From NCBI GenBank assembly GCA_029945725.1, contig JAQSDB010000008.1, positions 372,001 through 436,000 on the forward strand: a stretch of DNA of 64,000 nucleotides, written 5' to 3'. The position numbers and the translations under genes were made by a program. This DNA is from a bacterium. Its GTDB lineage: Bacteria > Pseudomonadota > Gammaproteobacteria > Pseudomonadales > Moraxellaceae. Within the stretch, counting starts at the first letter, position 1. Every line of letters starts with the position of its first letter. Below, one piece after another: positions 15,687-39,511 of the stretch. Under the pieces are notes generated by a model that worked only from the letters and a program-made list of their open reading frames with translations, had not been told where the DNA came from and did no database searches.

Positions 15687-15699
15687 GAGACAACAATCC

Positions 15700-16305: not shown

Positions 16306-16508
16306 CCCGAAAGAGGCGGCAGGCAATGCATTGAAAACCCGCAAGGAAACCGCCCGACTTTCCATGAGGCACCTTTTTGTTTTTTACTTCGGGGAGCATG
16401 ACGTCACTGACAGGCATCACGGTAATAACAACACAATGTAGCCGAGAGGCAGTGCCCGTTATTTTTCTTTGAAAAAATTAAACATCTGTGAATTCATGAC
16501 AGGGAAAA

Positions 16509-16538
16509 TAAAAAATCCCGCAACAAGCGGGCTTTTTT
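16509..16538. terminator. Bidirectional terminator between the AhpD-like gene and tsaD
   Basis: CCCGC/GCGGG stem (16517-16521, 16527-16531) with flanking A- and T-runs, between convergent genes. The 200 bp before it (16306-16508) are AT-richer than the surroundings and contain no frame I would call a gene. Confidence 0.8.
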
Positions 16539-16547
16539 ATGCATCGT

Positions 16548-17582
16548 TTATTTGGCAGCGAGAGGCCGGCCCGGCGCATGCAAGTCGGTCATGGGCCAGC
16601 GCGGCCGCACGGTAATTCCCATGCCTTCTTTTTCACCGGCCAGCAGGCGCTGTGCGCCGGCAAAGGCGATCATGGCGCCGTTGTCCGTACAAAACGGCAG
16701 TGCCGGATAAAAAACGTCTGCCTTGTGTCGAGCCGTCATCTGCGCCAGTGCGGTGCGCAGCAATTTGTTCGCACTGACGCCCCCCGCCACCACCAGGCGC
16801 CTCACACCGGTTTCCTTGAGGGCACGTTCGCATTTGCGCGACAGGGTATCCACGGCGGCCGCCTGAAAACTGGCCGCAATATCAGCTGACTTCTGCGGAT
16901 AATCCTCGGTAGTTCTCAGTGCATTCATGACCGAGGTCTTAAGGCCGCTGAAGGAAAAATCGAGACCGGGCCGGTCCAGCATGGGGCGCGGAAAGGCAAA
17001 GCGGGTGGCATCGCCACCCTCCGCCAGCTTTGCCACCGCCGGGCCACCGGGATAATCCAGCTTCAGCATCTTGGCAACCTTGTCGAAGGCCTCGCCGGCA
17101 GCGTCATCAATGGACTCTCCCAGCAAGTGATAACGACCGATGCCGTCCACCCGCATCAACTGGGTGTGACCGCCGGAAACCAGCAAGGCAATAAAGGGGA
17201 ACGCTGGCGGACTGGCCTCCAGCATGGGCGCCAGCAAATGCCCTTCCATGTGGTGCACGCCGACGGCCGGCACACCCAGCGCCCAGGCCAGGGTACGGCC
17301 AAACACGGCACCCACCATCAGGGCGCCGGCCAGCCCGGGTCCGGCGGTATAGGCAACGCCATCCAGCTCGTCCAGTGTCGTGCCAGCCCCGGCCAGCAAG
17401 TCGCGCAGGAGCGGAATGATCTTGCGCACATGATCACGCGAGGCCAGCTCCGGGACCACACCACCGTAATCGGCATGCAGCTCGATCTGGCTGTAAAGGC
17501 TGTGCGCGAGCAAACCCCGCTCAGTGTCGTAGACCGCCACTCCGGTTTCGTCGCAGGAAGTCTCTATACCGAGTATGCGCAT
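16548..17582 (-). CDS. tsaD: tRNA N6-adenosine threonylcarbamoyltransferase TsaD
   Basis: TsaD, with TsaB and TsaE, transfers threonylcarbamoyl to A37 of ANN-decoding tRNAs. The 344-residue product begins [16 protein letters not shown] (ATP-binding ASKHA fold), has the iron-binding HMEGHLLAP histidine pair, the VSGGHTQLM loop, FSFSGLKT, and ends with [12 protein letters not shown] and [10 protein letters not shown] motifs. Length is normal. It is divergent from rpsU with a 334-bp gap, the conserved arrangement. Confidence 0.96.
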
Positions 17583-23964: not shown

Positions 23965-24795
23965 ATGAAGCAGCCGACGCTACTTTCGTATCAGAACTAT
24001 CGCTACCTGAAGCTCGCTTCACTGTTAGCCATAGCCTCGATGCTGGCCTACATCGCGCACAACCCCTCGGTCAAGCCGAGTGGGGGCACCTGGCTCGGCT
24101 ACACTCTGGGGACGATCGGCACCCTCATCATTCTTTTGCTGCTGGCCTTTGGCATTCGCAAGCGCAGCTACCAGTCCACACTGGGTAAACTGCAGGGCTG
24201 GCTCTCCGCGCACATCTATCTCGGCGCCGCTCTCGTCATCGTCGCCACCCTGCACAGCGGTTTTGAATTCGGCTGGAATATTCACACCCTGGCCTACGTG
24301 CTCACCCTGCTGGTCGTCGCCAGCGGCTTCTGGGGCATGTATTTCTATATCCGCAATCCGGCCCGCATGAGCGCCGCCTTGCGCGGAGAAACACTGGAAC
24401 AGCATTTGCTGGCCATTGCCGAGATCGACAACCATTCACGCACGCTGGCGATGAATCACTACGATCATGTCAATCAAGCCTTGCTGGCCTCCAATAACGC
24501 ACCGCTGTTTGAAAACTTCTGGCAGCAGTTTTCCGGCAAGAACCCGCAGTGCCGCACGGCGGCTGTCACCAGCCTGCTCATCGCCAGCACGGAAAAAATG
24601 ACCGGCGAGCAGGCCAAGATCAATGCCGCCGTCTATGAACTGCAACTACAGAAGCTGGCCCGCCTCAATCGCCTGCGCCATTACACCCGCCTGAAAACCT
24701 GGGTTGATTCCTGGCTCATCGTGCATGTGCCCTTGTCGATTGCGCTGCTGGCCGCACTGACAGCGCATATCGTTTCCGTTTTCTTCTACTGGTAG
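23965..24795 (+). CDS. Di-heme cytochrome b-like membrane protein, first gene of the multihaem cluster
   Basis: A 276-residue inner-membrane protein with about five transmembrane helices. Two helices each carry a pair of histidines 14 residues apart: H83/H97 and H254/H268. That is the bis-histidine spacing used by quinone-linked cytochromes b and ferric-reductase/NOX-type membrane domains to hold two b haems across the membrane. A third histidine (H107) is nearby, and a helical cytoplasmic or periplasmic loop (about 130-245) separates the two haem helices. I cannot place it in a named family. It is followed after 10 bp by a membrane-anchored ten-haem cytochrome, so a role as quinol oxidase/quinone reductase feeding or draining that cytochrome is a reasonable inference. 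Confidence 0.75.
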   Translation: MKQPTLLSYQNYRYLKLASLLAIASMLAYIAHNPSVKPSGGTWLGYTLGTIGTLIILLLLAFGIRKRSYQSTLGKLQGWLSAHIYLGAALVIVATLHSGFEFGWNIHTLAYVLTLLVVASGFWGMYFYIRNPARMSAALRGETLEQHLLAIAEIDNHSRTLAMNHYDHVNQALLASNNAPLFENFWQQFSGKNPQCRTAAVTSLLIASTEKMTGEQAKINAAVYELQLQKLARLNRLRHYTRLKTWVDSWLIVHVPLSIALLAALTAHIVSVFFYW

Positions 24796-24805
24796 TGGTG
24801 ATTCC

Positions 24806-26665
24806 GTGAAAGTCCTTGTCACCACTGTTACGCGCTCCCCCAGGGGCAACCCGATGCGGTCTACCCGCGAGCTGAATGCCGAGCAGATCCGGCTGGGGCG
24901 CGGTGCCGAGTGCGAGCTGAGACTGGCGGACCCGCGCGTTCCGATTCATGCCCGCACCATTCTGCCCGGCAAAAACGGCGCACAGATGTATGAAGTGACC
25001 GAGCAGAATGCCGATGTCACGGCGGTGTATCAGGCGCCGCAGGCACTCAACCCCGGCACCTCGCTGAAAATCGGCCCCTTCCAGCTTGATGTCACGGAGC
25101 CCGGCAGCGCCGACCTCGCTCTCACCATCGAGCTGGTACAGGCGCTGCCGGAAAATTCAAAAGCCGTGGACAAGGCCGTATTCTTTCGCGCAACGCGCCT
25201 GCCGGTTTCACGACGACTGCTGGCATGGGCGCTGTTCCTGCCCATTCTCGCCGGCTTCCTGATCCTGCCTGCACTGAACTTCTTTTTTAACAACCAGAGT
25301 GATGCCCCCAAAAAAATAACGATGGGTGAATCGCGCGCCCTGCATCAGGTAAAAAAAGTGGTGGCGATCGCCGGTGACGGTTCCTGGAATCCCGGCGAGC
25401 TGGCCGCAGGACACCAGGCCTTCGCCAGCAACTGCAAGGCCTGCCACAGCGCATCCTTCACGCGCGTGCAGGATGCGGACTGCAAAGCCTGTCATCAAAA
25501 CATGGGCAGCCATGTCAGCCCGAAAACCGGCCATGTTGCCGCCCTTGATGAAACCCGCTGCGCCAGTTGCCATCGGGATCACCAGGGCGCGCTGGGTTTG
25601 CAGCAGCAGAATACCCATTACTTCATGGGCGAATGCGCCTCCTGCCATGGCAACATCAAGGCGAGCCTGGCCACTGCCCGCAGCGGCAACGTCAGCGACT
25701 TTGCCCGCGAACATCCTGAATTCCGTGTCATGGCAAACACCGGCCCCGGCAAAAACGACATGGCGCGCCTGCGCCTGCCCGACACCGGCATGCTCAGGGA
25801 AAAAAGCACACTCAAGTTCCCGCATGATGTGCACCTCAATCCCAAAGGCGTGAACGGCCCGCAAGGACGCATCAAAACCGGTTGCGCCAGCTGTCACGTC
25901 CCCGACAGCCGCGGCACCGGTTTCAAACCGGTCACGATGAAAGAACACTGCCAGTCCTGCCATGAATTACGTTTTGAACTGGCTGCGCCCGAGCGCCAGG
26001 TAGCACACGGCAGCGTCAGCGATGTCATGACCACGCTGCGCGAGTTCTACAGCTATATCGCCGTGAACGGCATCGTCCTGAATCGTCCTCAAGGCAATGC
26101 AGCGACGGAGCAGCCCCTGCGCGGCCTGCCCGGCAAACCGTTAACGGCGGCCATACGGCTCAGCAGCAGCGCTGATGTCGACAACGAGGTTCATCACGCC
26201 GCCACGGAGATTTTCGAAAAGACGTCCTGTTTCAGCTGCCACGAAATCTCGCGCACGACCACCGCAAGCGGTGCCGCATCCTGGGTGATCAGCCCGGTCA
26301 AGCCGGCACCGGCACGCATGGCGGCTGCCCGCTTCTCGCATGACAAACATGCCATGGCATCCTGTGAAAGCTGTCACGCCGCTCCCGCATCAAAGTCGTC
26401 ACACGATGTGCTGATGCCGAAAATAGACAGCTGTCGCCGCTGTCATGCCGGCAACAAGGCCGAGCCGAAAAAGATTGTTTCCAACTGCGGGCTTTGCCAT
26501 GACTTCCATGTCAATGCGCGCAGCGAAATGCCGTGGAGCAGCAATAAAAAAGACCATGCCGTGACATGGCCTTCGGCCCGTGATGCCGCACTCCTGCACG
26601 CCGGCACGGCATTACCGGCACTTGCGTCCCCGCCTCACCCCGCCCCCCTGGCGCCACGGCCATGA
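24806..26665 (+). CDS. FHA-like domain/transmembrane/decahaem cytochrome c fusion
   Basis: A 619-residue protein with GTG start. Residues about 25-100 resemble a forkhead-associated domain (IRLGRGAECELRL, then IHARTI), although the phosphothreonine-contacting serine position is not conserved. One transmembrane helix follows (about 138-160, LLAWALFLPILAGFLILPAL). The C-terminal part would be periplasmic and carries ten CxxCH haem c motifs (starting near residues 210, 226, 252, 277, 359, 381, 474, 519, 542 and 560), several spaced 15-26 residues as in cytochrome c3-like folds. The topology puts the FHA-like domain in the cytoplasm. The stop overlaps the next start (ATGA). An internal ATG at codon 17 would delete part of the FHA-like region. 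Confidence 0.85.
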   Translation: MKVLVTTVTRSPRGNPMRSTRELNAEQIRLGRGAECELRLADPRVPIHARTILPGKNGAQMYEVTEQNADVTAVYQAPQALNPGTSLKIGPFQLDVTEPGSADLALTIELVQALPENSKAVDKAVFFRATRLPVSRRLLAWALFLPILAGFLILPALNFFFNNQSDAPKKITMGESRALHQVKKVVAIAGDGSWNPGELAAGHQAFASNCKACHSASFTRVQDADCKACHQNMGSHVSPKTGHVAALDETRCASCHRDHQGALGLQQQNTHYFMGECASCHGNIKASLATARSGNVSDFAREHPEFRVMANTGPGKNDMARLRLPDTGMLREKSTLKFPHDVHLNPKGVNGPQGRIKTGCASCHVPDSRGTGFKPVTMKEHCQSCHELRFELAAPERQVAHGSVSDVMTTLREFYSYIAVNGIVLNRPQGNAATEQPLRGLPGKPLTAAIRLSSSADVDNEVHHAATEIFEKTSCFSCHEISRTTTASGAASWVISPVKPAPARMAAARFSHDKHAMASCESCHAAPASKSSHDVLMPKIDSCRRCHAGNKAEPKKIVSNCGLCHDFHVNARSEMPWSSNKKDHAVTWPSARDAALLHAGTALPALASPPHPAPLAPRP

Positions 26666-28581
26666 ACACGCCTTTTTTTTCCGGCACTGGCTCGCCTCGC
26701 CTGCACCAGCGCAGGCAACTGGCCACCACAGCGGCCTTGCTCGTCATGCTTCTGGGCACGGCCTGCGGTGATGGTTCCTCCGGCGATCCCGCACCCGCTG
26801 CGCTGGATTCGGTGTCACTGAGCATCGCTGACGTCAATCGCGTGCTTGCCCAGGGCGTGGCCGAGGCGCAGGCGCGTCAGGTAAAGGCAACGTTTGCGGT
26901 AACGGATCGTGTCGGCAATGTGCTGGCGGTTTATCAAATGGCCGGTGCCGGCAGCACGGTTGATGTCGTCAGCGGCCTTGGCGTGAACGGCGGTCTTGAT
27001 GGCGTGCTCAATACCATTCCCGCCACACTGGCAGCGATCAGCAAGGCGCTGACCGGCGCCTATTTGTCGTCATCGGGCAATGCCTTTTCCACGCGCACGG
27101 CCAGCCAGATCATCCAGAAAAACTTCAATCCGCAGGAAGCCAGCCAACCCAGCGGGCCGCTGTATGGCGTGCAGTTCAGTCAGTTGCCCTGCTCGGATCT
27201 GGTGCGCCGTTTCAGCGATGGCAGTATCGGCCCCAAGCATTCCCCGCTCGGCCTGTCCGGCGATCCCGGCGGCTTGCCGCTGTACAAGAACGGCGTGGTC
27301 GTGGGGGGGGTGGGCGTCGTGGCCGACGGCGTTTACGGCATTGACCTTGATATCACCGACGTCGACAACGACACCGACGAACTGATTGCCGTCGCCGCCA
27401 GCAGCAGCTACAGCGCGCCACAGGATATTCGTGGCAACCGCATTACCGCTGATGGCCGCAGCTTCCGTTACGTCGACTCGGAAGCCATCCGCACCAGTCC
27501 TGCCGCCGCCAGCGTCGCCACCCTGGTGCCGGGCGAATTCAAGGCCGTAACGGGCTACAGCACGGCCGCCGCACGCGCCGGCATTGCCATGGGAACGCCC
27601 GGCTCCGGCATCCGGCCGGATAGCGGAGCGCTCTCGGCTGTTTCTGCCTGGGTGCTGACTGACGCCGCCGACAACAATCGTTATCCGCCCATCGACAGCA
27701 TCAGCCCCGCCACCGCCTTGAACGGCATGACGCAACAGGAAGTGACACAGCTTCTGCTCAGCGCACTGGATGTCGCCAACCATGCCCGCGCCCAGATCCG
27801 CCGCCCTCTGGGATCGGCCGCGCAGGTCACGGTAACGGTGGTCGATACGTCCGGCACCGTACTCGGCCTCGGCAAAACACCCGATGCACCGCTCTTTGGT
27901 GTTGATGTCGCGCTGCAAAAAGCGCGCACCGCCAGTTTCTTTTCCAGCGCCAGCGCCGGCGCCGCTTTGCAGGCACTGCCGCCAGCAGCCTATATCAACG
28001 GCCCGGCCTCGCCGCTTGCCGCTTATGTGACGGATGCCAGAAATTTTTTCAGTGATGCCCTGCTGCTCACCGGCAACACCGCTTTTTCTGCACGCGCGCT
28101 TGGCAACATTCATCGCCCCACGTTTCCCGACGGCATTGCCGGCACACCCCATGGCCCGTTCTCGAAAAGCGCGGGGCAATGGAGCCCGTTCAATGTCGGC
28201 CTGCAGCTTGATCTGGTTTACAACCAGCTGCTGCAGAGTGTGGTGGCTGCCGATTTTTCCGAAGGCTGTACCGGCATTGCCTCCCTTAAAAACGGCATCC
28301 AGATATTTCCGGGCGCCGTGCCGATATACCGCGGCACACAACTGATCGGTGCCATCGGCGTTTCCGGTGACGGCGTTGACCAGGATGACATGGTCGCCCT
28401 GCTCGGCCTTGGCCGCGCCAGCAGGATACTGGCAGGCAGCAGCGTCAATCCGATTGGCAATGCACCCGCCGCGATGCGCGCCGACACCCTCAGCCCGCAA
28501 GGCATCCGGCTGCGTTATGCGCAGTGCCCGCAGTCCCCCTTTAACGGCAGCAGCGCACAAAATGTCTGCGCCGGTCTTTGA
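26662..28581 (+). CDS. Lipoprotein-like protein with two GlcG/HbpS-type domains
   Basis: A 639-residue exported protein. The N terminus is a basic stretch, hydrophobic core and LLGTAC-GDGSSG, which looks like a lipoprotein signal with a slightly unusual lipobox, followed by a flexible linker. The mature part has two similar halves (about 48-285 and 345-575), each beginning with a helix like SLSIADVNRVLAQGVAEAQ or MTQQEVTQLLLSALDVANH and a strand like FAVTDRVGNVLAVYQM or VTVVDTSGTVLGLGK, and each containing a LPLYKNGVVVGGVGVVADG / VPIYRGTQLIGAIGVSGDG segment; this is the GlcG/HbpS (DUF336) pattern, some members of which bind haem or cobalamin-like cofactors. It overlaps both neighbours, so it is co-translated with the cytochromes. 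Suggested role: periplasmic haem- or small-molecule-binding partner. Confidence 0.78.
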   Translation: MNTPFFSGTGSPRLHQRRQLATTAALLVMLLGTACGDGSSGDPAPAALDSVSLSIADVNRVLAQGVAEAQARQVKATFAVTDRVGNVLAVYQMAGAGSTVDVVSGLGVNGGLDGVLNTIPATLAAISKALTGAYLSSSGNAFSTRTASQIIQKNFNPQEASQPSGPLYGVQFSQLPCSDLVRRFSDGSIGPKHSPLGLSGDPGGLPLYKNGVVVGGVGVVADGVYGIDLDITDVDNDTDELIAVAASSSYSAPQDIRGNRITADGRSFRYVDSEAIRTSPAAASVATLVPGEFKAVTGYSTAAARAGIAMGTPGSGIRPDSGALSAVSAWVLTDAADNNRYPPIDSISPATALNGMTQQEVTQLLLSALDVANHARAQIRRPLGSAAQVTVTVVDTSGTVLGLGKTPDAPLFGVDVALQKARTASFFSSASAGAALQALPPAAYINGPASPLAAYVTDARNFFSDALLLTGNTAFSARALGNIHRPTFPDGIAGTPHGPFSKSAGQWSPFNVGLQLDLVYNQLLQSVVAADFSEGCTGIASLKNGIQIFPGAVPIYRGTQLIGAIGVSGDGVDQDDMVALLGLGRASRILAGSSVNPIGNAPAAMRADTLSPQGIRLRYAQCPQSPFNGSSAQNVCAGL

Positions 28582-30703
28582 TTCATGGCGGGCCCGCATC
28601 GCCGGCATCCTGCTGGCAGGCTTCGGGTTGCCCGGACTTTCTGCACCGGCATGGGCTGATGAAAACCGGCAGGCACTGCCGGCAACGGCCGCTGCCACAA
28701 CAGAAAATCCGCTGGCTGGTGCACCCGGTTTTTTTGACCTGCAGGTACTGTCTGCGCACATCGCCATCCACGAAGAGCCTGCCGAGGATTCCAGCGTGCT
28801 GGCCGATATCCGGCGCGGACAAATGCTGCGTGCCGATCAGCGTCGTGGTGACTGGTACCGCATTCGTTTCTCCGACGCTGTTGACGGTGCTTATGGCTGG
28901 ATCAGGCAGGCGCCCGGCGAAGACGGGGACATGCGTTTGTCGGTGCAGGCCTACGGCAGCAGCGCCACACAGAATCCTGCCGACAGCACCCCTGGCACGG
29001 GTGAAGACGCGCTGGCCAGTGCTGAAATACAGCGCTCAAGTGTCGACAGCCGGCGCATGGCCATCGGCCTGCCGCTGATTGATCCCGCCCAGGTAGCGCC
29101 GCCACAAGCCGACCTGCCGCGGGAAATGGTGGCCATCCCCGATCGCTGGCGCATCATGCAGGCACTGGGTTTCCGTTTTCCGCTTTACGATCCCTATCAC
29201 CAGAATCCCCTCAAGGGTGATTTGCCGGTGCTGCCGGCACTCGGTGATGACTGGTTTTTCAATCTCGGCCTGATTGCCGACACCACCTATGAAATGCGCC
29301 GGCTGCCGATTCCGGTGGCACCGCAAACCTCGCCGCAGGCCGGCGCACTCAATGTCTTCGGCGACAGTGCCCGGCAATCCACCCTGACAGAAACACTCGT
29401 CATCAATCTGGGCCTGATCAAGGGCGACACCACCTTCAAGCCCCCGGAATACGAATTCCGCTTTGTTCCCGTGCTCAACTACAACCGTTCGGAAGTGGAT
29501 GAGCCACGGGCACTGCGCGTCGATCCACGCAGTGGCGAAGAGCGCCGCGATCACTTTGCCGGCATCCAGGAACTCTTTGCCGATGTGCATTTGCGCAATG
29601 TCTCCGAGCGTTACGACTTTGACAGCGTGCGTGTCGGCATCCAGCCCATGAACCTCGACTTCCGCGGCTTTTTGTTTCAGGACAATGCACTCGGCGTGCG
29701 CTTCTTTGGCAATCGCGACAACAACCACTGGCAATACAACGCAGGCTGGATGCGGCGACTCGAAAAAGACACCAACAGCGGCCTCAATGATCCGGGCCGG
29801 AGCCCGCGCCGCGATGACGTGTATTTCGCCAATGCCTATCGCCAGGATTTTCCGGTGGCCGGCTTTACCAGCCAGCTGGCGCTTGTGCACAACCGCAATG
29901 CCGAATCCGGCGCGGATTATTACGACAAAAACGGGTTTCAGGTGCGCCCGGCCGTCATCGGTGATGTGCGCCCGCATGATTACCAGGTGACCTACCTCGG
30001 CTACAGCGGCGACGGGCACCTCAGCCGCTATGGCCTCAGCACATCGACTTACCTGGCGCTCGGTCACGATGACTACAACGCCGTGGCGCAAAAATCCCAA
30101 ACCATAGAAGCCTTTTTTCATGCCACCGAGCTGTCGCGTGATTTCGACTGGATACGCCTTCGCGGCAATTTCCTTTATGCCTCGGGCGACAGGAATCCTT
30201 TTGACAATGTCGCCGGTGGTTTTGATGCCATTCTGGAAAATCCGCAGTTCGCCGGTGCCGACACCAGCTTTTTCATTCGCCAGGCGGTGCCGCTGATTGG
30301 CGGTGGCGGTGTCGCCCTGTCGGGACGCAACGGCATCCTGCCGTCGCTGCGCTCCTCCAAGGACCAGGGCCAGTCGAATTTCGTGAATCCGGGTTTGACG
30401 CTGCTCGGTGCCGGCGCCGATCTTGATCTCACGCCCACACTGCGCCTGCTCGGCAATGTTTCCGCCCTGCGCTTTAACGAAACCCAAATCCTGGGCGTGC
30501 TGCGCAACCAGCTGCCGCCGTCGAAAGACATCGGTACCGACGTCTCCGCCGGCATCCAGTACCGCCCGCTGTATTCACAAAACATCGTCATCACCGGCTC
30601 CTTTGCCGCGCTGGTTCCCGGCAAGGGCCTGCGCGAGCTTTACGATGAAGACCAGCGTGGCCCGCAATATTCCGCCCTCATCAACGTGATACTGGCGTTC
30701 TGA
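28562..30703 (+). CDS. Outer-membrane beta-barrel protein with N-terminal SH3-like domain
   Basis: A 713-residue exported protein. A signal peptide ends at AWADEN; residues about 58-117 form a bacterial SH3-like domain (HIAIHEEPAEDSSVLADIR, GDWYRIRF, YGWIR), the rest from about 190 is a series of amphipathic aromatic strands ending with the outer-membrane signature ...INVILAF (C-terminal Phe). Size would allow roughly 20 or more strands. No cysteine is visible, so it lacks the CxxC seen in MtrB-type sheath porins, but by position between multihaem cytochrome genes it is the natural candidate for the barrel of an outer-membrane electron conduit. The start is inside the end of the preceding gene (20-bp overlap) and the next gene begins two bases after its stop. 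Confidence 0.8.
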   Translation: MSAPVFDSWRARIAGILLAGFGLPGLSAPAWADENRQALPATAAATTENPLAGAPGFFDLQVLSAHIAIHEEPAEDSSVLADIRRGQMLRADQRRGDWYRIRFSDAVDGAYGWIRQAPGEDGDMRLSVQAYGSSATQNPADSTPGTGEDALASAEIQRSSVDSRRMAIGLPLIDPAQVAPPQADLPREMVAIPDRWRIMQALGFRFPLYDPYHQNPLKGDLPVLPALGDDWFFNLGLIADTTYEMRRLPIPVAPQTSPQAGALNVFGDSARQSTLTETLVINLGLIKGDTTFKPPEYEFRFVPVLNYNRSEVDEPRALRVDPRSGEERRDHFAGIQELFADVHLRNVSERYDFDSVRVGIQPMNLDFRGFLFQDNALGVRFFGNRDNNHWQYNAGWMRRLEKDTNSGLNDPGRSPRRDDVYFANAYRQDFPVAGFTSQLALVHNRNAESGADYYDKNGFQVRPAVIGDVRPHDYQVTYLGYSGDGHLSRYGLSTSTYLALGHDDYNAVAQKSQTIEAFFHATELSRDFDWIRLRGNFLYASGDRNPFDNVAGGFDAILENPQFAGADTSFFIRQAVPLIGGGGVALSGRNGILPSLRSSKDQGQSNFVNPGLTLLGAGADLDLTPTLRLLGNVSALRFNETQILGVLRNQLPPSKDIGTDVSAGIQYRPLYSQNIVITGSFAALVPGKGLRELYDEDQRGPQYSALINVILAF

Positions 30704-30705
30704 CC

Positions 30706-33700
30706 ATGACGAAGCCTCGCCTGAACTTTTTCCCGGCACGGCCCCTGCGGCAGCTGGCATGCTTCCTGGTGCTGATCCTGCTCGGCAGTGTCGCCCTGCC
30801 CGCCTGTGCCTCCGAGGCGGCAGAGCTCATCAAGCGCAGCTACGTGTTTGCCCCTCCTGCACCGCAGGCACAGGCCGAAGCGGCCGCCATCGGCAAGAGC
30901 GAAGGCTGCATCAGCTGTCATGTCACCACCGACCGCCACACCATGCATGCCAATCCGGGCGTGGTGATCGGCTGCACGGATTGTCATGGCGGCAATGCTG
31001 CCATCACGCGCCCGCTGAATGCCGATTACAAAAACAAGGGTGTCGATGCCTATCGCTACGCCATGGATGCCGCGCACATCCTGCCGCGCGATGTGAAATT
31101 CTGGCGCTATCCTTCATCCGCCAATCCACCGGCCTCCTACACCAGACTCAACAAGGAAAGTCCGGCCTATATCCGCTTCATCAACCCCGGTGACTTGCGC
31201 GTGGCGCGCGCCTCCTGCGGCGCCTGCCACCTCGCCATCATCCAGGCCAGCGAACGAAGCCTGATGTCGACCTCCGCCATGCTCTGGGGCGGTGCTTCCT
31301 ATAACAACGGCATTCTTCCCTTCAAGCGCTACATCGTCGGCGAGGCCTATACCGCCGACAGCCAGCCCGCCGCGCTGGTCGCCCCGGTGCCGCCGGATGC
31401 CTTCATGACCGCCAAAGGCATACTGCCAAAACTGACCGCCCTGCCCGCCTGGGAAACGGCGCCGCCCGCTGATGTGTTCCGTGTTTTTGAAAGCGGCGGA
31501 CGCGTCATCAGCAGCCAGTTTCCGGAAATCGGCCTGCCCAACAGCAGCGGCATATTGCAGAAACTGGATGAGCCTGGCCGGCCCGACATCAAGCAGTCCA
31601 GTCGCGGCCCTGGCACCGGCAGCCGCATTGCCGTGCCGCTGATCAATGTCACCAAGACACGGCTCAATGATCCGCACCTGTGGTTTCTCGGCACCAATGA
31701 CCAGCCCGGTGATTACCGCTCTTCCGGCTGCACCGCCTGCCACACCATCTACGCCAACGACAGGGACCCGAAGCACAGCGGCCCTTATGCCGCAGCCGGC
31801 CATGACGGTGCCACGCAAACGCTGGACCCGACCATTCCCAAAAACGAGGCCGGGCATCCGATCAAGCACGAATTCACCCGTGCCATTCCCTCGTCGCAAT
31901 GCATGGTCTGCCACATGCACCAGCCGAATATTTTCGTGAACTCCTTCTACGGCTACACCATGTGGGATTACGAATCCGATGCGCCGCACATGTGGCCGAA
32001 GCAGCAGAAATATCCCACGGCAAAAGAATCGCGCGAGATTCTTGATCACAATCCGGAAGAAGCCGCCACGCGTGGCAGCTGGAGCGACCCTGCCTTCCTG
32101 AAGAATGTCGCCAGCCTGAATCCGCAGCTCAAGGACACGCAGTTTGCCGACTATCACGGCCACGGCTGGAATTTCCGTGCGGTGTTCAAGCGCAACCGCA
32201 AGGGTGCCCTGCTCGACCAGAAAAACAACATCATCGCCGATGAAGACCCGGACAAGTTCAAGAAAACCGTGCACCTCTCGTCCATCCACCTCGACAAGGG
32301 CATGCATTGCGTGGACTGCCACTTCGCCCAGGACATGCACGGCAACGGTCATATTTACGGCGAAGTCGCCGCCGCCATCGAGGTGGATTGTGCCGACTGC
32401 CACGGCACCGCCACCACGTACCCGACCTTGCGCACCAGCGGCCCTGCCGCCAGACCGGGCGGCATGGACCTGTCCCTGCTGCGCACGCAGGATGGTCGCA
32501 AGCGTTTTGAATGGCGCAATGGCCGGCTCTTCCAGCGCGCTGCACTGGACCCGGAAAAAGAATGGGAAGTGTCGCTGGTCAAGGATTCGGTAAACCCGCA
32601 AAGCTCGCACTACAACGAAAAAGCCGCACGCGCCAAACTGATGGCCGCCGGTGATGAAGGCCGTGACGGAAAATGGGGGCCCGGCGTGAAAAACCTGGCT
32701 CACGACAACAAGAAAATGACCTGCTACACCTGTCATGTTTCGTGGACCACGAGCTGCGCCGGCTGCCATCTGCCGATCCAGGCCAACTGGAAAACCGAAC
32801 GTCATCATTACGAAGGCGGCGAGACCAGAAACTACGCCACCTACAATCCGCAAGTGGTGCGTGACGATGTGTTCCAGCTCGGCCGTGCCGGCCCGGTGAA
32901 AGGCGCTCGCATCACGCCGGTACGTTCCAGCTCGGCACTGGTGCTCTCGTCCACCAATGCCAACCGTGAACGCATCTATATCCAGCAACCCCCGATTGCG
33001 GCCAGCGGCTTCTCTTCACAGGCCTTTGCACCGCATTACCCGCACACGGAAAGAAAGGAAGAAACCAAAACCTGCAGTGACTGTCATCTCTCCAGAAAGA
33101 ATGACAACAACGCCATCATGGCGCAGCTGCTGCTGCAGGGAACCAACTTCGTCAACTTCATCGGTTTCAATGCCTGGCTCGGCGAAGCCGGCCACGTCGA
33201 AGCCGTACAGGTCACCGAGTGGGATGAACCCCAGGCCGTCATCGGCAGCTATCTGCACCGCTACGCCTACCCGGACTGGTTTGCCCGGCACCAGTTGCAT
33301 AATCAGGAATTGCAGACTGCGCACGATCACCGCACAAGCGGCGCCGTCGGCTGCATGCAGATACGGGGTGAATATCTTTTTGCGGCCGAAGCCGATGGCG
33401 GCATGCGTGTCTACGATGTCGCCAGCATCGCCAACAAGGGTGTGGCGCAACGCATCATCACTGCGCCCTACTCCAGCCTTGGCCAGAAAAGCTTTATCCA
33501 TTCAAAAAATGCAACCTGTGTGGCCCTGCCCACCAACCAGCCGATTGCCCCGCTGCGCAACCAGGGCGACCTGATGCGCATCACCAATCAGGAGCAGGCT
33601 TTCCATCCCGTCTACAGCTATGCCGTGATCACGGATGCCAGGGAAGGCCTGATCCTGACCAATGTCGATACGCTGGCCGACGGCAATGCGCGCAACAATT

Positions 33701-34578
33701 TCCTCAAGCGCGCGCTCACCTGGAACCCGGATGGCGTGCTCAACGGCGCCCGTCATGTCACGCTGGGCGGACACATTGCCTATGTCGCAGCCGATGCCGG
33801 CATGGTCATCATTGATCTCGACAAGCCGACCGCGCCAAAACTGCTGGCCGTCATTCCGCTGCCCGGCGTGCGCGCCTCGGCCCTGCAGTTCCGCTACCTT
33901 TTCGTGACCACGAACCTCGGCCTGCAGGTGATTGATGTCACCCATGCGGAAAAAGCAAAACTGCTGCCGGCCATCATTCCGCTGCGCGATGCGCATCATC
34001 TTTATGTCGCGCGCACCTACGCCTATGTCGCCGCCGGCGCGCAGGGCCTGGCCATTATCGATGTCGAAAAACCGGAGTCGCCCGTGCTCTACCAGCTCTA
34101 CACCGCACAGGGAAAACTCGATGATGCGCAGGACGTGATTGTCGGCAGCACCAATGCCTCGCTGTTTGCCTATGTGGCCGATGGCAAAAACGGCCTGAAG
34201 GTAGTGCAGCTGACGTCGCCCGACAGCCAGCCGCGTTTCTATGGTTTCTCGCCCGAACCGAAGCCCGAGATCATTGCCTGGCGTAAAACCGCCTCGGCAG
34301 CGCTCTCCTTGTCCAAGGGCCTTGACCGCGATCGCGCCGTCGATGAAACCGGTGGCCAGATTGCCGTCTTTGGCCGCATCGGTTCGCGCCCGTTCACGCG
34401 CGAGGAAATGGACCGCTTCTACCAGCGCGAAGACGGCTCGGTATGGGGCGTCAGTGACGAGGTTTCCGCCGCGGATTTTGTCGACAGGCAGCGCCCGGTG
34501 GCCGCCCCGGTTCCGGCGGCCGGAAAAACTTCCGCGGGCACGCCTGCCCCCAAAGCACCAGCACGGAAAGCCAAGTGA
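30706..34578 (+). CDS. Giant decahaem cytochrome c with C-terminal LVIVD beta-propeller
   Basis: A 1290-residue exported protein. After a signal peptide (LACFLVLILLG core, ending ACA-SEA) come ten CxxCH motifs, near residues 68, 90, 171, 342, 399, 535, 562, 673, 684 and 790, spread over an unusually long stretch with many extra histidines for axial ligation. From about 860 to 1190 there are repeats of the form YVAADAGMVIIDLDKP, FVTTNLGLQVIDVTH, YVAAGAQGLAIIDVEKP, YVADGKNGLKVV, the LVIVD repeat that builds a beta-propeller and is often found in surface proteins. The tail is Pro/Ala/Lys-rich. No transmembrane helix beyond the signal. Likely the main periplasmic or cell-surface electron carrier of the cluster, paired with the barrel encoded two bases upstream. 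Confidence 0.85.
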   Translation: MTKPRLNFFPARPLRQLACFLVLILLGSVALPACASEAAELIKRSYVFAPPAPQAQAEAAAIGKSEGCISCHVTTDRHTMHANPGVVIGCTDCHGGNAAITRPLNADYKNKGVDAYRYAMDAAHILPRDVKFWRYPSSANPPASYTRLNKESPAYIRFINPGDLRVARASCGACHLAIIQASERSLMSTSAMLWGGASYNNGILPFKRYIVGEAYTADSQPAALVAPVPPDAFMTAKGILPKLTALPAWETAPPADVFRVFESGGRVISSQFPEIGLPNSSGILQKLDEPGRPDIKQSSRGPGTGSRIAVPLINVTKTRLNDPHLWFLGTNDQPGDYRSSGCTACHTIYANDRDPKHSGPYAAAGHDGATQTLDPTIPKNEAGHPIKHEFTRAIPSSQCMVCHMHQPNIFVNSFYGYTMWDYESDAPHMWPKQQKYPTAKESREILDHNPEEAATRGSWSDPAFLKNVASLNPQLKDTQFADYHGHGWNFRAVFKRNRKGALLDQKNNIIADEDPDKFKKTVHLSSIHLDKGMHCVDCHFAQDMHGNGHIYGEVAAAIEVDCADCHGTATTYPTLRTSGPAARPGGMDLSLLRTQDGRKRFEWRNGRLFQRAALDPEKEWEVSLVKDSVNPQSSHYNEKAARAKLMAAGDEGRDGKWGPGVKNLAHDNKKMTCYTCHVSWTTSCAGCHLPIQANWKTERHHYEGGETRNYATYNPQVVRDDVFQLGRAGPVKGARITPVRSSSALVLSSTNANRERIYIQQPPIAASGFSSQAFAPHYPHTERKEETKTCSDCHLSRKNDNNAIMAQLLLQGTNFVNFIGFNAWLGEAGHVEAVQVTEWDEPQAVIGSYLHRYAYPDWFARHQLHNQELQTAHDHRTSGAVGCMQIRGEYLFAAEADGGMRVYDVASIANKGVAQRIITAPYSSLGQKSFIHSKNATCVALPTNQPIAPLRNQGDLMRITNQEQAFHPVYSYAVITDAREGLILTNVDTLADGNARNNFLKRALTWNPDGVLNGARHVTLGGHIAYVAADAGMVIIDLDKPTAPKLLAVIPLPGVRASALQFRYLFVTTNLGLQVIDVTHAEKAKLLPAIIPLRDAHHLYVARTYAYVAAGAQGLAIIDVEKPESPVLYQLYTAQGKLDDAQDVIVGSTNASLFAYVADGKNGLKVVQLTSPDSQPRFYGFSPEPKPEIIAWRKTASAALSLSKGLDRDRAVDETGGQIAVFGRIGSRPFTREEMDRFYQREDGSVWGVSDEVSAADFVDRQRPVAAPVPAAGKTSAGTPAPKAPARKAK

Positions 34579-35978
34579 TGAAACTTGCACACGTGATTCA
34601 TGATTTTTTTCAGCACTGCTCTCACCGCAGGGCGTCATATCGCACGTTCAGCCTGCCGCTGCTGCTACTGGCGCTGCTCGCAGCGCCGGCGGCGAACAGC
34701 GCTGTCATGCCGCAGGACTCCACACACCAGAGCCTGGGCGTCGTCAATTGCGCCTCCAGCATGTGCCATGGCGCCATCAGCCCGTGGAAAGACTCGCACA
34801 TCCTGCACAATGAATATTCCACCTGGCTGCGCCTGGACAAGCATGCCGAGGCCTACAACGTCCTGCTTGGTGACGACTCAAAACGCATTGCCAGAAAACT
34901 CGGCCTGGCCAAACCCGCGTCACAGGAAAAAATCTGTCTCGATTGCCACGCCCATAATCCGGCGCCGGAAAAACGCGGCGAACGCTTTTCCCTCAGCGAC
35001 GGCGTTTCCTGCGAAGGCTGTCATGGCCCGGCCGAACAATGGATAAAAACGCATACCAAAGCCACCGCCACACATGCCAGCAATCTCAGGGACGGTCTTT
35101 ATCCAACCGACCGCCCCGTGGAAGTCGCGAAGCTGTGCCTGTCCTGTCATCTCGGTAATGAAAAGAAACTGGTGACGCATCGCCTCATGGGAGCGGGTCA
35201 TCCACGCCTGGCGTTTGATCTCGATACCTTCTCCGCCATTCAGCCGCCGCACTACCGTATCGACAAGGACTGGCAGGAGCGCAAGGGTGATTACGATGGC
35301 GTGCGCCTGTGGGCCATCGGCCAGGCCATGGCGGTGCGCACGCAGCTGGCGACACTGGCCGATCCCGTGCAGGGCCGTGACGGCCTCTTCCCCGAGCTCG
35401 TGGTGTTTGATTGCCACGCCTGCCATCACCCCATGTCGGATAAAAAATGGCAGCCCCGACAGGGCACCGGCCCCGGACATATTCGCCTGAACGACTCCAA
35501 CCTGCTGATGCTGCGCAATATTGTCAGGGTGGTGAATCCTGCCAGGGCCGCTGCCCTGAGCGCACAAATACAGCGCCTGCACAAAAGCATCGCCGGTGAA
35601 ACCGGCATGCAGGGCAGCGACCCGCTGGCAGAGGCGCGCAAGCTTTCCGCGATGGTCGATGAACAGATTGTTTTTTTTGAAAAGCGCCACTTCTCCGGCG
35701 CCGACCTGCACGCCATCCTGCGCCAGCTGATTGACGAGGGTCTGGCCAATGGCTATACCGACTATGCCGGTGCCGAACAGGCTTTCATGGCCATCGCCAG
35801 CGTCGCCAATTACCTGCAGAAAACCGGCGACCCCGGCGTCGCTCGCGACATCAATCTCCGCCTTGCGGCCATGCGCAAGACATTAAGCAACGATGAGCAT
35901 TACCAGCCCGCACAGTTCAAGGCCGAACTGCAGAAACTTCGTCTTGTAATTGCCGGCTCCGCCGCCCGTGCCCAGTGA
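34578..35978 (+). CDS. Cytochrome c554-like multihaem cytochrome with one Cx4CH motif
   Basis: A 466-residue exported protein. A signal peptide with hydrophobic core LPLLLLALLAAPAANSA is followed by CASSMCHG (C58-x4-C63-H64, a Cx4CH variant) and four ordinary CxxCH motifs near residues 120, 145, 187 and 279. The order C..CHG, CLDCHAH, CEGCHGP, CLSCH resembles the cytochrome c554/hydroxylamine-oxidoreductase-type multihaem family. The last 180 residues have no haem motif and are helical. It starts at the stop of the giant decahaem gene (TGATG) and ends seven bases before the flavoprotein gene. Probably a soluble periplasmic shuttle; a catalytic role cannot be excluded. Confidence 0.82.
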   Translation: MKLAHVIHDFFQHCSHRRASYRTFSLPLLLLALLAAPAANSAVMPQDSTHQSLGVVNCASSMCHGAISPWKDSHILHNEYSTWLRLDKHAEAYNVLLGDDSKRIARKLGLAKPASQEKICLDCHAHNPAPEKRGERFSLSDGVSCEGCHGPAEQWIKTHTKATATHASNLRDGLYPTDRPVEVAKLCLSCHLGNEKKLVTHRLMGAGHPRLAFDLDTFSAIQPPHYRIDKDWQERKGDYDGVRLWAIGQAMAVRTQLATLADPVQGRDGLFPELVVFDCHACHHPMSDKKWQPRQGTGPGHIRLNDSNLLMLRNIVRVVNPARAAALSAQIQRLHKSIAGETGMQGSDPLAEARKLSAMVDEQIVFFEKRHFSGADLHAILRQLIDEGLANGYTDYAGAEQAFMAIASVANYLQKTGDPGVARDINLRLAAMRKTLSNDEHYQPAQFKAELQKLRLVIAGSAARAQ

Positions 35979-35985
35979 GGATGTG

Positions 35986-38436
35986 ATGACCGCCATGGAC
36001 AGCCGCGAAAAAAGCAGCGCCGACGACGTACTGATGGTGGCTATTATCGGCTCCGGCCCGGCCGGTCTTTCGGCGGCGTCGCGTGCCGCCGAACTGCAGG
36101 CATCACATGTTTTGCTGGAAGCAGAAAATCACGCCTCCGACACCATCCACAAGTACCAGAAAGGCAAGCACGTGATGGCCGAACCGTCGGTGCTGCCGCT
36201 GCAAAGCGGCATGAGCTTCAGCGCAGGAAAACGCGAGGCCGTACTCGACACCTGGAACCGTCAGCTGGAAGAACAGGGCGTGAACATCCGCTATGGCTGC
36301 CGCGCCGCAGCAATTGCCCGTGGTGATGACGGCATCTTCACCATCAGCTGTGAAAACGGCAGCGAAGTCCGCGCCCGCAACGTGGTGCTCGGCATCGGCC
36401 TGCAGGGCAACATCCGCAAGCTCGGCGTACCCGGAGAGAACCTGGAGCAGGTGCAATACACCGTGCGTGATCCGGAAGAATACGAAGGCGAAACCATCAT
36501 CGTGGTCGGTGCCGGCGATGCGGCCATCGAAAATGCGCTGGCCTTGTCACGCCAGAACCGCGTCATCCTGATCAACAAGGACGAAGAGTTTGCGCGCTGC
36601 AAGGAAGGCAATCTCGCGCTCATCCTGGCGGCCGGCAAGGATGGCAGTGTCGAAATCCGTTACGGCGCCCGCACCGTCAAGGTGGAGGACACCGGCAGTC
36701 CCGACCAGCCTCTGCTTTATGTCGCCAAAACACCGACCGGCGAGGAAAGCATTCCCTGCCATCGCGTGGTGGCACGCCTCGGCGCCAGCCCGCCACGCAA
36801 GCTCGTGGAAAGTTTCGGTATCCGCTTCCCGAACAATGACCCCAATGCCGTACCGGCTCTCTCCGGCACGTACGAATCCAGCCTGCCGGGGCTCTACATC
36901 GTCGGTGCGCTGGGCGGCTATCCGCTCATCAAGCAGGCCATGAACCAGGGCAATGAAGTGGTTTCCACCATCATGGGCATGGCGGTGGTGCCGGCGGACG
37001 AACTTCTCATCAAATCGCGGCTCGGCAATTTCCGCCGTGAATACACGGTGAGCGAGGCGCTCAGCGTGATCCAGCATTGCGTGCCCCTGTTCGAGGGCAT
37101 GACGGCGCTGCAGATGCGCGACCTCATGCTGGAGTCCAGCATCCTGATACCGGCAGCCGGCGACATCATTTTCAGGAAAAACGATTACACCAACAGTTTC
37201 CTCTCGATTGTCGAAGGCAGTGTGGAAGTCGAGGTATTCGACGCCAACGGCCAGGCCAGCTGGATACACCTGCGCCGCGGCCAGTTCTTTGGTGAAATGG
37301 GCCTGATCTCCGGACGCCGCCGCTCCGCGACGGTGCGTGCCGGTGAAGACTGCGTACTGCTGGAAACACCGCGACGGCTGATGCTGAAGCTGATTGCCTC
37401 CATCGAGGATGTGCGCAAACAGATTGATGAAGTATTCCTGCGCCGCGCCATTTCGACTTACGTCGGCCCCAACCTTTATCTCGCCGAAATCGGCCAGCTC
37501 ATGGAAGGGGGTGTTGAAGTCAGGCGCTACGCCAGCAACGAGATTGTCTTCAATGAGGGTGATGAGCCCGATGCGCTTTACCTGATCCGCCGCGGCTCCG
37601 TCACCGTCTCAAAAAAAGTGGCCGGGCACGATGTGGTGCTGTCCTATGTATCGGCCGGCAACTATGTCGGTGAAATGGCGCTGCTCAATGACATTCCGCG
37701 CACAGCGACCGTGCAGGCGACCGTGCAGACGGAAATGCTGCTGCTGAAAGCCGAAAATTTCAAACGCGTTCTGGCAGGCAATCCCGAGTGGCGTGCCGAA
37801 ATGGATGCGCGCTTCCTGCAGCGCGTTGAAAGCAATGTCAAAAGAGAGCAGCAGCAAAGTGGCGGCAGCGACATCATCCGTTTCCTCATGGGACAGGGTC
37901 TGGGTGAAGGTACCGACGTCCTGCTGATCGACGAATCGCTTTGCATACAATGCAACAACTGTGAAACCGCCTGCGCCGAAACCCACGAAGGAATGTCGCG
38001 CCTGAACCGCGCCGCCGGCCCGTCGTTCCGGAATATTCACGTACCCACTTCATGCCGCCATTGCGAACACCCGCACTGCATGAAGGATTGCCCGCCGGAT
38101 GCCATCCGCCGCTCCGATGCCGGTGAAGTCTTCATCAGCGATGCCTGCATAGGCTGCGGCAACTGCGAGCGCAACTGCCCTTACGGGGTCATCCAGATGC
38201 GTGCCCCGGCGCCGCAAACCGGCAAGACCGGCCTGCTCGCCTGGCTGGTTTTTGGCATCGGCGAAGGTCCCGGTGAAAAAGTCGCGGTGTACGACCCCAA
38301 CCAGCCGAAAAAAGCCGTGAAATGCGATATGTGCAAGGACCAGAAAGGCGGCGCTGCCTGTGTGCGCGCCTGCCCTACCGGCGCTGCCATTCGTGTGGCA
38401 CCGGAACGCTTCATGGATTTCGAGATTGATTCCTGA
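35986..38436 (+). CDS. FAD/NAD(P) reductase, two cNMP-binding domains and 4x[4Fe-4S] ferredoxin in one chain
   Basis: An 816-residue cytoplasmic fusion. Residues about 15-325 are a thioredoxin-reductase-like flavoprotein with GSGPAG (22-27) and GAGDAA (175-180) nucleotide loops and the C-terminal GLYIVGALGG FAD motif; the redox-active CxxC of thioredoxin reductase is absent. Two cyclic-nucleotide-binding domains follow (about 365-470 and 505-600); both keep the phosphate-binding cassette (FFGEMGLISGRRRSATV and YVGEMALLNDIPRTATV) with its Gly-Glu and Arg. The C-terminal 180 residues have 16 cysteines in four groups (CIQCNNCETAC, CRHCEHPHCMKDC, CIGCGNCERNC, CDMC...CVRAC), the DmsB/HycB-type four-cluster ferredoxin. 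An AGGA site precedes ATG 35986. It is the obvious electron input or output module for the cytochromes, possibly gated by cAMP or cGMP. Confidence 0.88.
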   Translation: MTAMDSREKSSADDVLMVAIIGSGPAGLSAASRAAELQASHVLLEAENHASDTIHKYQKGKHVMAEPSVLPLQSGMSFSAGKREAVLDTWNRQLEEQGVNIRYGCRAAAIARGDDGIFTISCENGSEVRARNVVLGIGLQGNIRKLGVPGENLEQVQYTVRDPEEYEGETIIVVGAGDAAIENALALSRQNRVILINKDEEFARCKEGNLALILAAGKDGSVEIRYGARTVKVEDTGSPDQPLLYVAKTPTGEESIPCHRVVARLGASPPRKLVESFGIRFPNNDPNAVPALSGTYESSLPGLYIVGALGGYPLIKQAMNQGNEVVSTIMGMAVVPADELLIKSRLGNFRREYTVSEALSVIQHCVPLFEGMTALQMRDLMLESSILIPAAGDIIFRKNDYTNSFLSIVEGSVEVEVFDANGQASWIHLRRGQFFGEMGLISGRRRSATVRAGEDCVLLETPRRLMLKLIASIEDVRKQIDEVFLRRAISTYVGPNLYLAEIGQLMEGGVEVRRYASNEIVFNEGDEPDALYLIRRGSVTVSKKVAGHDVVLSYVSAGNYVGEMALLNDIPRTATVQATVQTEMLLLKAENFKRVLAGNPEWRAEMDARFLQRVESNVKREQQQSGGSDIIRFLMGQGLGEGTDVLLIDESLCIQCNNCETACAETHEGMSRLNRAAGPSFRNIHVPTSCRHCEHPHCMKDCPPDAIRRSDAGEVFISDACIGCGNCERNCPYGVIQMRAPAPQTGKTGLLAWLVFGIGEGPGEKVAVYDPNQPKKAVKCDMCKDQKGGAACVRACPTGAAIRVAPERFMDFEIDS

Positions 38437-38498: not shown

Positions 38499-38981
38499 CT
38501 ATTTTTTATACTGCTGCCAAAGTGCCTCTGCGCGGCTGACCGCAAGCACATCAACTTCTGCGGCAACACTCTCCACTCCGGCACGACGCCGGATCAGGAA
38601 AACGCCAAGGCCGAGTGCCATCACCAGCAGGACAAAAGGGCCGAGCCACAGCAGCAGGGTTGTCGCCTTCAGCGGTGGTGAATACAGGATGAAATCCCCG
38701 TAACGCGACACCATGTAAGTACGGATTTCCTCATCGCTTTTTCCGGCCGCCATCTGCTCACTGATCTGTGTGCGCAAGTCCACGGCCAGTGCCGCACTGG
38801 AATCGGCAATGGACTGGTTCTGGCACACGAGACAACGGAAACCCGCCGCCAGGTGCTGGAAGCGTTGCGCATCGACTACTGCCGCGTCAGCCGCAAAAAC
38901 CGTTGCTGAAAAAAAACAGGCCATGACAAACAGGACGCAACGCCGGTGCACGCGCGCGAAAAAAAGACGATGGGTTTTCAT
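38499..38981 (-). CDS. ccmH: Cytochrome c maturation protein CcmH
   Basis: CcmH holds and reduces the apocytochrome CxxCH cysteines for haem ligation with CcmF. The 160-residue product has a signal peptide/anchor, the FRCLVCQNQSIADS motif (the LRCxxC signature with its redox pair), the YGDFILYSPP segment, and a C-terminal transmembrane helix (TLLLWLGPFVLLVMALGLGVFL). Its start overlaps the ccmG stop by four bases. Last gene of the ccmI-F-G-H operon, ending tail to tail with the multihaem cluster. It is the short, CcmH-only form. Confidence 0.93.
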   Translation of the reverse strand: MKTHRLFFARVHRRCVLFVMACFFSATVFAADAAVVDAQRFQHLAAGFRCLVCQNQSIADSSAALAVDLRTQISEQMAAGKSDEEIRTYMVSRYGDFILYSPPLKATTLLLWLGPFVLLVMALGLGVFLIRRRAGVESVAAEVDVLAVSRAEALWQQYKK

Positions 38982-39511
38982 GGCTGCCTGCCTTTGGCCA
39001 GCAAGGGCAGCACGGCTTCATCAATGAACTGCTGCGTGACCGGCCCGGTATGTTTGGCCCTGATCACGCCAGCGGCATCAATCAGGAAGGTTTCCGGCAC
39101 GCCATAAACACCGAGATCAATGCCGGTGCGGCCATCACGGTCCTGCAGCACCAGCGCATAGGGATTACCGTTACTGGCCAGCCACTCGCGGGCGTCCGCT
39201 GTTTCGTCCTTGTAATCAAGGCCGACAATATCGATAAAGCCGCGCCGTGACAGATCGAGAATCTGCGGGTGTTCGATAACGCAGGCGCTGCACCACGATG
39301 ACCAGACATTGAGCAGCCACACCCTGCCGCGCAGGGAGGACGAACTCACGCGCCGCGCCGGATCATCGAGAGTGGCGAGCGTAAAGGCCGGCAGCGGTTT
39401 GTTGATCAGTGCCGACGGCAGGTCACGCGGATCCAGCGCCAGACCACGCCAGAGAAAAACCGCCAGCATGATCAATACCAGCAGCGGTAACGCCAGGCGC
39501 AGCGCTTTCAT
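38978..39511 (-). CDS. ccmG: Thiol:disulfide interchange protein CcmG/DsbE
   Basis: A membrane-anchored thioredoxin that passes reductant from DsbD/CcdA to the apocytochrome system. The 177-residue product has an N-terminal anchor helix (LALPLLVLIMLAVFLW), the KPLPAFTLATL strand region and the active-site motif WSSWCSACVIEHP, where the CxxC is C-S-A-C rather than the common C-V/P-P/T-C. The GVYGVPETFLIDAAG cis-proline loop is typical of DsbE. Overlaps ccmF and ccmH by four bases each. Confidence 0.93.
   Translation of the reverse strand: MKALRLALPLLVLIMLAVFLWRGLALDPRDLPSALINKPLPAFTLATLDDPARRVSSSSLRGRVWLLNVWSSWCSACVIEHPQILDLSRRGFIDIVGLDYKDETADAREWLASNGNPYALVLQDRDGRTGIDLGVYGVPETFLIDAAGVIRAKHTGPVTQQFIDEAVLPLLAKGRQP

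Follow-up and report, generated by a model that had tools for sequence, protein, structure and literature searches.

The window analysed here, a stretch of 64,000 nucleotides from a Moraxellaceae genome (assembly GCA_029945725.1, contig JAQSDB010000008.1, positions 372,001 to 436,000), carries a cassette of seven open reading frames (ORFs), g1 to g7, all on the + strand between 23965 and 38436. Successive frames are spaced by +10, -4, -20, +2, -4 and +7 bp, assuming starts at 28562 for g4 and 35986 for g7 (a TTG at 35950 for g7 would turn the last spacing into an overlap, -29). At these starts the ORFs confirm the co-directional, tightly packed run with gaps of -20 to +10 bp described in an initial annotation of this DNA. 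The gene contents given there are likewise supported by Pfam, motifs and modelling, except that the small cytochrome, which had been assigned 4-5 haems, is now read as probably pentahaem.

Relatives were gathered by a scan of species genomes with g5, which returned at least 580 of them; the cassette is widespread, and the earlier description as unusual does not hold as to frequency. Locus counts use the best 80 of these at least 580 loci, so that the sample is biased to close relatives, and many of the 80 contigs end early. After length filtering, the relatives kept were 56 of 56 for g1, 51 of 59 for g2, 59 of 64 for g3, 67 of 76 for g4, 79 of 80 for g5, 53 of 59 for g6 and 60 of 63 for g7; the alignments hold, besides the window, 65 of the 67 for g4 (A3), 54 of the 79 for g5 (A4), 24 of the 53 for g6 (A5), 21 of the 51 for g2 (A6), 19 of the 59 for g3 (A7) and 21 of the 56 for g1 (A8).

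According to profile matches, hydropathy (several predicted helices) and a tree, g1 (23965..24795) is an inner-membrane dihaem cytochrome b of the PCC3/PCC4 "IMP" type. It carries two WX3HX13H motifs, at residues 79 and 250, and SGXXG at residue 120; the WX3HX13H pair is present in 55 of 56 relatives, as is SGXXG. No Pfam family scored above its cut-off for g1, the nearest being Ferric_reduct at 0.0066, and its profile against PDB sequences returned four rows only, all at E 0.29-0.66. Next to it, g2 (24806..26665) combines an FHA-like cytoplasmic domain, a single transmembrane helix (about residues 138-156) and a periplasmic decahaem part, as read from Pfam, motifs and hydropathy. Its 10 CXXCH motifs are kept in 50 of 51 relatives, and 10 histidines beyond the haem motifs are invariant in 22 aligned sequences. 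The LVIVD domain named in the initial annotation is clear (2.4e-14, in g5), while the FHA-like domain falls below the Pfam cut-off (Yop-YscD_cpl at 4e-4) but gains support from the g2 family profile, which matches GarA FHA structures at 1.4e-7. The same profile matches a multi-c7 cytochrome structure, 3ov0, which we take to be GSU1996.

The last gene, g7 (35986..38436), encodes a cytoplasmic protein with no predicted membrane helix, consisting of a ferredoxin-NADP-reductase-like flavin domain, two cyclic-nucleotide-binding (cNMP) domains and probably four [4Fe-4S] clusters, as read from Pfam (cNMP_binding 6.1e-40, Pyr_redox_3 3.4e-25, PF13247 1.5e-8 and several Fer4) and cysteine conservation. 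By profile match the flavin part resembles ferredoxin-NADP reductases (6gar/5ygq) and thioredoxin reductases, and the first 350 residues are free of CXXC in 60 of 60 relatives. The Fe/S part resembles HycB-type subunits, with 16 cysteines within the last 190 residues in all 60, and the phosphate-cassette motif is kept in both cNMP domains of the window protein. In two loci (L031 and L032), g7 and g1 are fused as a single ORF.

Three further products, g3, g5 and g6, appear to be exported. From Pfam (HbpS-like, GlcG type, 8.5e-23) and structure matches of EfgA/GlcG/HbpS type, g3 (26662..28581) is a probable lipoprotein with HbpS/GlcG/EfgA-type domains in three matched stretches. Lipobox-like N-termini were read by eye in the window and four relatives, and a lipobox pattern was counted in 36 of 64 g3 ORFs, a crude figure because the starts were untrimmed. 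Both g5 and g6 begin with a hydrophobic stretch, and cytochrome c7/c3/c554 families are among the Pfam matches of the window cytochromes. Pfam, motifs and modelling describe g5 (30706..34578) as an exported decahaem cytochrome with a C-terminal seven-bladed LVIVD propeller (about residues 820-1208). All 79 of the 79 relatives that passed the length filter retain its 10 CXXCH motifs, and by our own count 12 histidines beyond them are invariant in 55 aligned sequences. Structure matches cover mainly the propeller (1l0q: Z 29.3, root-mean-square deviation (rmsd) 2.2, 275 aligned), and the g5 profile found no relative among PDB sequences at E 0.1. The smaller g6 (34575..35978) is related to c554 at 1.3e-6; it has four CXXCH motifs and one CX4CH, conserved in 53 and 52 of 53 relatives respectively, and is probably best counted as pentahaem. 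Five histidines beyond its haem motifs are invariant in 25 aligned sequences.

The remaining product, g4 (28562..30703), is confidently predicted to be an outer-membrane barrel, for which Pfam reported no family apart from SH3. The model, built from 66 sequences with a mean predicted local distance difference test score (pLDDT) of 81.7, places an SH3-like domain before a barrel in which we count 18 strands of at least 9 residues between residues 231 and 712. The best structure match is AlgE (3rbh_D: Z 28.8, rmsd 2.8, 361 aligned, 15% identity), with OprD-type pores also matched at Z about 23-26. The g4 profile found no relative among PDB sequences at E 1, and a profile search for remote relatives in 398 genomes gave 12 matches, all strong and none weak. 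The 50 structure matches listed for g4 include no MtrB-type entry, which is no measure of MtrB likeness. MtrB has about 26 strands, with CXXC in some members, and 18 strands leave less room than these; window g4 has no cysteine, and CXXC occurs in 2 of 67 relatives. On the model, g4 is read as a selective, substrate-type pore and not as a casing for a chain of haems.

The best 80 loci are titled mostly Alpha-, Beta- and Gammaproteobacteria, with Duganella, Limnobacter, Parahaliea, Silanimonas and Steroidobacter among the genera named in record titles, and the same genes recur in the same blocks. Beside g5, the 80 loci show g4 in 76, g3 in 64, g7 in 63, g6 and g2 in 59 each and g1 in 56, and the barrel and decahaem g5 genes are adjacent on one strand in 76. 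The search for the seven-gene set in other genomes, proposed in the initial annotation, found all seven in 22 of the 31 loci that span 23 kb or more, and the six genes other than g6 in 29; seven lack only g6, and two show only g3-g4-g5. The barrel occurs in 12 of 398 genomes, and all 12 also hold g7 (itself present in 9 of 299 genomes of the phylum), which bears out the linkage proposed for these genes. The cassette is a conserved, widespread unit, more than a product of chance.

The commoner order is 7-1-2-3-4-5(-6), with g7 directly upstream of g1 in 41 of the 80 loci (39 on the + strand, 2 on the -), while in the window g7 lies at the operon's far end. The window order, 1-2-3-4-5-6-7, was found in 8 of the 31 longer loci, mostly titled Burkholderiales or relatives and also Silanimonas. 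In three genomes (G139, G178 and G310; loci L034, L035 and L033/L038), g7-g1-g2 and g6-g3-g4-g5 are convergent on opposite strands; in a fourth (G265) the two blocks lie about 670 kb apart on one contig; and three more (G058, G089 and G204, the last 76% complete) hold g7-g1-g2 without the barrel. The cassette is composed of two modules, an inner-membrane one (g7, g1, g2) and an outer-membrane one (g6, g3, g4, g5).

Some loci add genes to this plan. A PP2C-like gene lies right after g6 in 12 of the 80 (L083, L084, L086, L090, L094, L098, L102, L103, L104, L107, L114 at 14982-17150, and L115), followed in 10 of the 12 by a gene FHA-like by similarity; at L105 the position after g6 is taken by FHA and kinase genes, and Pfam confirmed the signalling genes at L083, L105 and L114. 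Proteins of one family, some 160 residues long, are encoded in 14 loci (L071, at 5752-6237, and 13 others, such as L068-L070 and L073-L076), in L071 between g2 and g3.

A g5 search of 58 related genomes at E 0.001 gave 8 matches, 4 of them full-strength and all in the window's genus (G000 itself, G001, G006 and G007); the other 4 were weak and covered the propeller only. Within this genus (G001-G008), the barrel is patchy, being found in only 3 of 8 other genomes, several of which are incomplete. Cassette genes were also seen in metagenome bins titled Klebsiella pneumoniae, Bordetella parapertussis and Marinimicrobia (L049, L063 and L073), where mislabelling is suspected, and a contig titled Vicinamibacteria (L055) carries g2-g7 in window order with g5 at 67% identity, reflecting either inter-phylum transfer or a binning error.

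On the 5' side, the cassette is flanked by dnaG and rpoD (read from the ORFs), a UPF0114 gene and a tRNA-Met. On the 3' side, cytochrome c maturation genes (CcmF/NrfE-, DsbE-, NrfF- and NrfG/CcmI-like) converge on it from the - strand (38499-42935), and a family whose scanned member is CcmH/CycH-like adjoins 9 of the 80 loci. A sigma-70 promoter scan gave 0 sites against 3.7 expected in shuffles, an uninformative result.

The inner-membrane module has counterparts elsewhere. In He et al. 2017 (PMC5566968), the putative conduit PCC4 is described with 4-, 5- and 10-haem periplasmic cytochromes, an IMP and, in subgroup II, a pfam13247 gene upstream of the IMP. The g1 profile matched in 35 of 398 genomes, and ten regions with weak matches were opened. 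Six (L179, L180, L184, L186, L187 and L188) carry Fe/S, IMP and decahaem genes in a row with a c554-like gene ahead; L183 has an IMP and a decahaem gene, L185 an IMP and a 7-motif cytochrome, L181 is cut by the contig end, and L182 places an IMP beside 24- and 27-motif cytochromes, as in PCC3. L186 contains a pentahaem cytochrome, a 459-residue putative barrel (no Pfam family), a reductase, a tetrahaem cytochrome, a cNMP-Fe/S protein, an IMP and a decahaem cytochrome, the reductase being a separate gene of FAD_binding_6/NAD_binding_1/Fer2 type (PF00970/PF00175/Fer2) beside the cNMP-Fe/S gene; L179 resembles it but is truncated. Matched by description to that paper, L186 and L179 fit putative PCC4 and L182 fits putative PCC3.

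We propose, as an evenly balanced judgement, that the seven genes form a two-module envelope redox cassette with outward electron flow, subject to gating, in which g4 would serve as a substrate or product pore. Electrons from NAD(P)H (or ferredoxin) would enter the flavin adenine dinucleotide of g7, pass through its four [4Fe-4S] clusters to the dihaem b of g1, and cross the inner membrane to reach g2, the decahaem anchored there. From g2, pentahaem g6 and the decahaem-propeller protein g5 may transfer the electrons to the outer-membrane side, with the lipoprotein g3 holding these proteins and the g4 pore admitting the substrate, or releasing the product, of g5/g3. A chain of this kind, from an NAD(P)H- or ferredoxin-type protein through dihaem b and the inner decahaem to exported cytochromes and a barrel, was outlined in the initial annotation and is plausible from the homologies. 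The haem motifs and further invariant histidines of g2 (10 and 10), g6 (5 and 5) and g5 (10 and 12) are in keeping with cytochromes that act like wires. Two unlike flavin modules, in g7 and in L186, sit on homologous cNMP-Fe/S - IMP - decahaem cores, which suggests that NAD(P)H or ferredoxin is the partner on the cytoplasmic side. The outward, reducing direction is favoured, since both the redox gradient and the membrane potential would drive electrons away from NAD(P)H in the cytoplasm. The cNMP motifs and the PP2C, FHA and kinase genes after g6 make gating of the flow probable, at any rate where these genes are present: cNMP binding on g7 and the FHA-like domain of g2 would take part, joined in some Gammaproteobacteria by the PP2C, FHA and kinase products. 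More specifically, and only tentatively, the cassette may be an NAD(P)H-driven trans-periplasmic reductase, gated by second messenger and phosphorylation and acting on a substrate that moves through its own AlgE-like pore, rather than a system for mineral respiration. The same inner-membrane core would then carry different outer-membrane heads (PCC4-like, that of the cassette, or none), and the cassette would represent a widespread undescribed class.

Several observations weigh against this proposal. At the locus level, 9 of the 31 loci that span 23 kb or more yielded no g6, two of these (L108 and L117) show g3-g4-g5 alone within the locus, and signalling genes adjoin a minority of loci (PP2C 12 of 80). 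The barrel fold of g4 is a prediction, with residues 1-53 and 132-170 below pLDDT 50, and the haem part of g5 is poorly modelled (mean pLDDT 67.5), so that its outer-membrane placement rests on gene linkage. A serine is usual in FHA domains; the FHA-like consensus of g2 is without it, which makes phosphothreonine binding doubtful. By a pattern of our own, the phosphate cassette is found in both cNMP domains of 34 of 60 g7 relatives, in one domain of 14 and in neither of 12, and cyclic-nucleotide control may thus not be universal. The redox chemistry of the cassette and the path, direction and gating of the flow are inferred, as is the role of the pore.

Other readings of the same genes were weighed. 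In a true extracellular conduit, g5 (or g6) would sit in or on the g4 barrel and deliver electrons to metal oxides, humics or some other acceptor outside the cell; we consider this rather unlikely. In its favour, 76 of 80 loci have the barrel gene directly beside the decahaem gene on the same strand, and the core is homologous to that of PCC4-like loci, a type that PMC5566968 puts forward as a conduit. Against it, no surface cytochrome was identified in the cassette, and no homology to the PCC4-like barrel was detectable (probability 0.15, from a two-sequence profile). The AlgE/OprD-like barrel of 18 strands (AlgE Z 28.8) is also narrower than the MtrB barrel of about 26. With no surface cytochrome identified either, a haem wire across the outer membrane finds no support, nor, in the form given, does the complete trans-envelope conduit that the initial annotation envisaged. 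Moreover, several of the titled host genera are aerobic heterotrophs.

Electron uptake would run the chain the other way: g1 would pass electrons from an external or periplasmic donor (such as Fe(II), Mn(II) or reduced organics) on to quinone, and g7 would be either a side branch towards NAD(P)+ or a regulator. This is in keeping with the hypothesis of He et al. that PCC4 feeds the quinone pool with electrons taken from an outside donor (PMC5566968). The presence of g7 in 12 of 12 barrel genomes indicates that the pyridine-nucleotide end is more than an optional branch. Reduction of NAD(P)+ from such donors is also uphill and opposed by the membrane potential, and we regard uptake as unlikely. 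A redox or ligand sensor, in which a ligand would bind to g3 and the propeller and the chain would relay the redox state of the envelope to cNMP and Ser/Thr-kinase signalling, would account for the HbpS-family, propeller, cNMP and FHA-like domains, for PP2C/FHA genes after g6 in some Gammaproteobacteria and for the FHA and kinase genes of L105; some HbpS-family domains are sensors. However, about 25 haems and an NAD(P)H-reductase-like protein would be a costly sensor, and PP2C adjoins only 12 of 80 loci, which makes this reading highly improbable.

Among known systems, MtrAB, MtoAB and PioAB share with the cassette a barrel gene beside decahaem genes. Membership in Mtr/Mto/Pio was rejected on the 18 predicted strands, the lack of cysteine in g4 and the family scores, as the initial annotation had anticipated. 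Against the MtrA/DmsE family TIGR03508 (cut-off 192.2), g2 scored 19 bits and g6 23.7 bits, g5 was unlisted, and no MtrB family was among the Pfam matches to E 0.1. The Geobacter extHIJKLMNOPQS selenite/tellurite cluster (PMC5877670) resembles the cassette in combining multihaem cytochromes with a cytochrome b and a porin, and part of g5 matches ExtM, although at 60.1 bits against a family cut-off of 800. By contrast, g1 has no ExtP match and g4 no ExtI match (E 0.01), and no Rieske or rhodanese family is among the Pfam matches listed for the window proteins. No description of the cassette was found in the literature searched; the supplements of He et al. lie outside that search, and a porin-linked cluster of Leptothrix cholodnii there (Supplementary Table 6) might match.

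The closest likeness is to PCC4. In the PCC4-like loci, the dihaem-b IMP is homologous to g1 (profile probability 99.5, with one PCC3-like row in the profile), the inner decahaem to g2 (99.5), the c554-like cytochrome to g6 (99.2) and the cNMP-Fe/S protein to g7 (3e-41), and the order Fe/S - IMP - decahaem is shared. The IMP features given for PCC4, two WX3HX13H and SGXXG, are present in g1, and the pfam13247 gene upstream of the IMP in subgroup II corresponds to PF13247 in g7, which directly precedes g1 in 41 of 80 loci; the haem counts differ, being 10/10/5 in the cassette and 4/5/10 in PCC4 (PCC4 features and counts from PMC5566968, where the IMP is regarded as possibly quinone-active). The barrels show no detectable homology (probability 0.15), a comparison limited to a two-sequence profile of L186 and L179, whose barrel nature was read from ORFs, because L180, L184, L187 and L188 showed no obvious barrel among the selected ORFs. 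The third cytochromes are likewise not detectably homologous (probability 29 over 37 columns). The cassette additionally has the HbpS lipoprotein g3 and the LVIVD decahaem g5, and its flavin domain, of thioredoxin reductase/ferredoxin-NADP reductase type, is fused in g7, while L186 uses a separate gene of another reductase family. PCC3-like L182 likewise has multihaem genes beside an IMP that carries two WX3HX13H but differs in its 24- and 27-motif cytochromes and in an IMP on its own long branch, for which the tree carries a long-branch warning. In that tree of 33 IMPs, those of the cassette group with those of loci that hold the inner-membrane module only (support 98/95), and the PCC4-like IMPs stand separately (99/99). 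With about 25 haems and seven genes in many Proteobacteria, and no assigned function found in the literature, the cassette thus appears from sequence comparison to be a sister to putative PCC4, with four homologous parts and a barrel and third cytochrome that are not detectably so. This suggests that the PCC4-type core is not only for metals and can bear an exchangeable outer-membrane head with a substrate-type pore, and the hosts in named genera would allow a direct test of this inner-membrane core.

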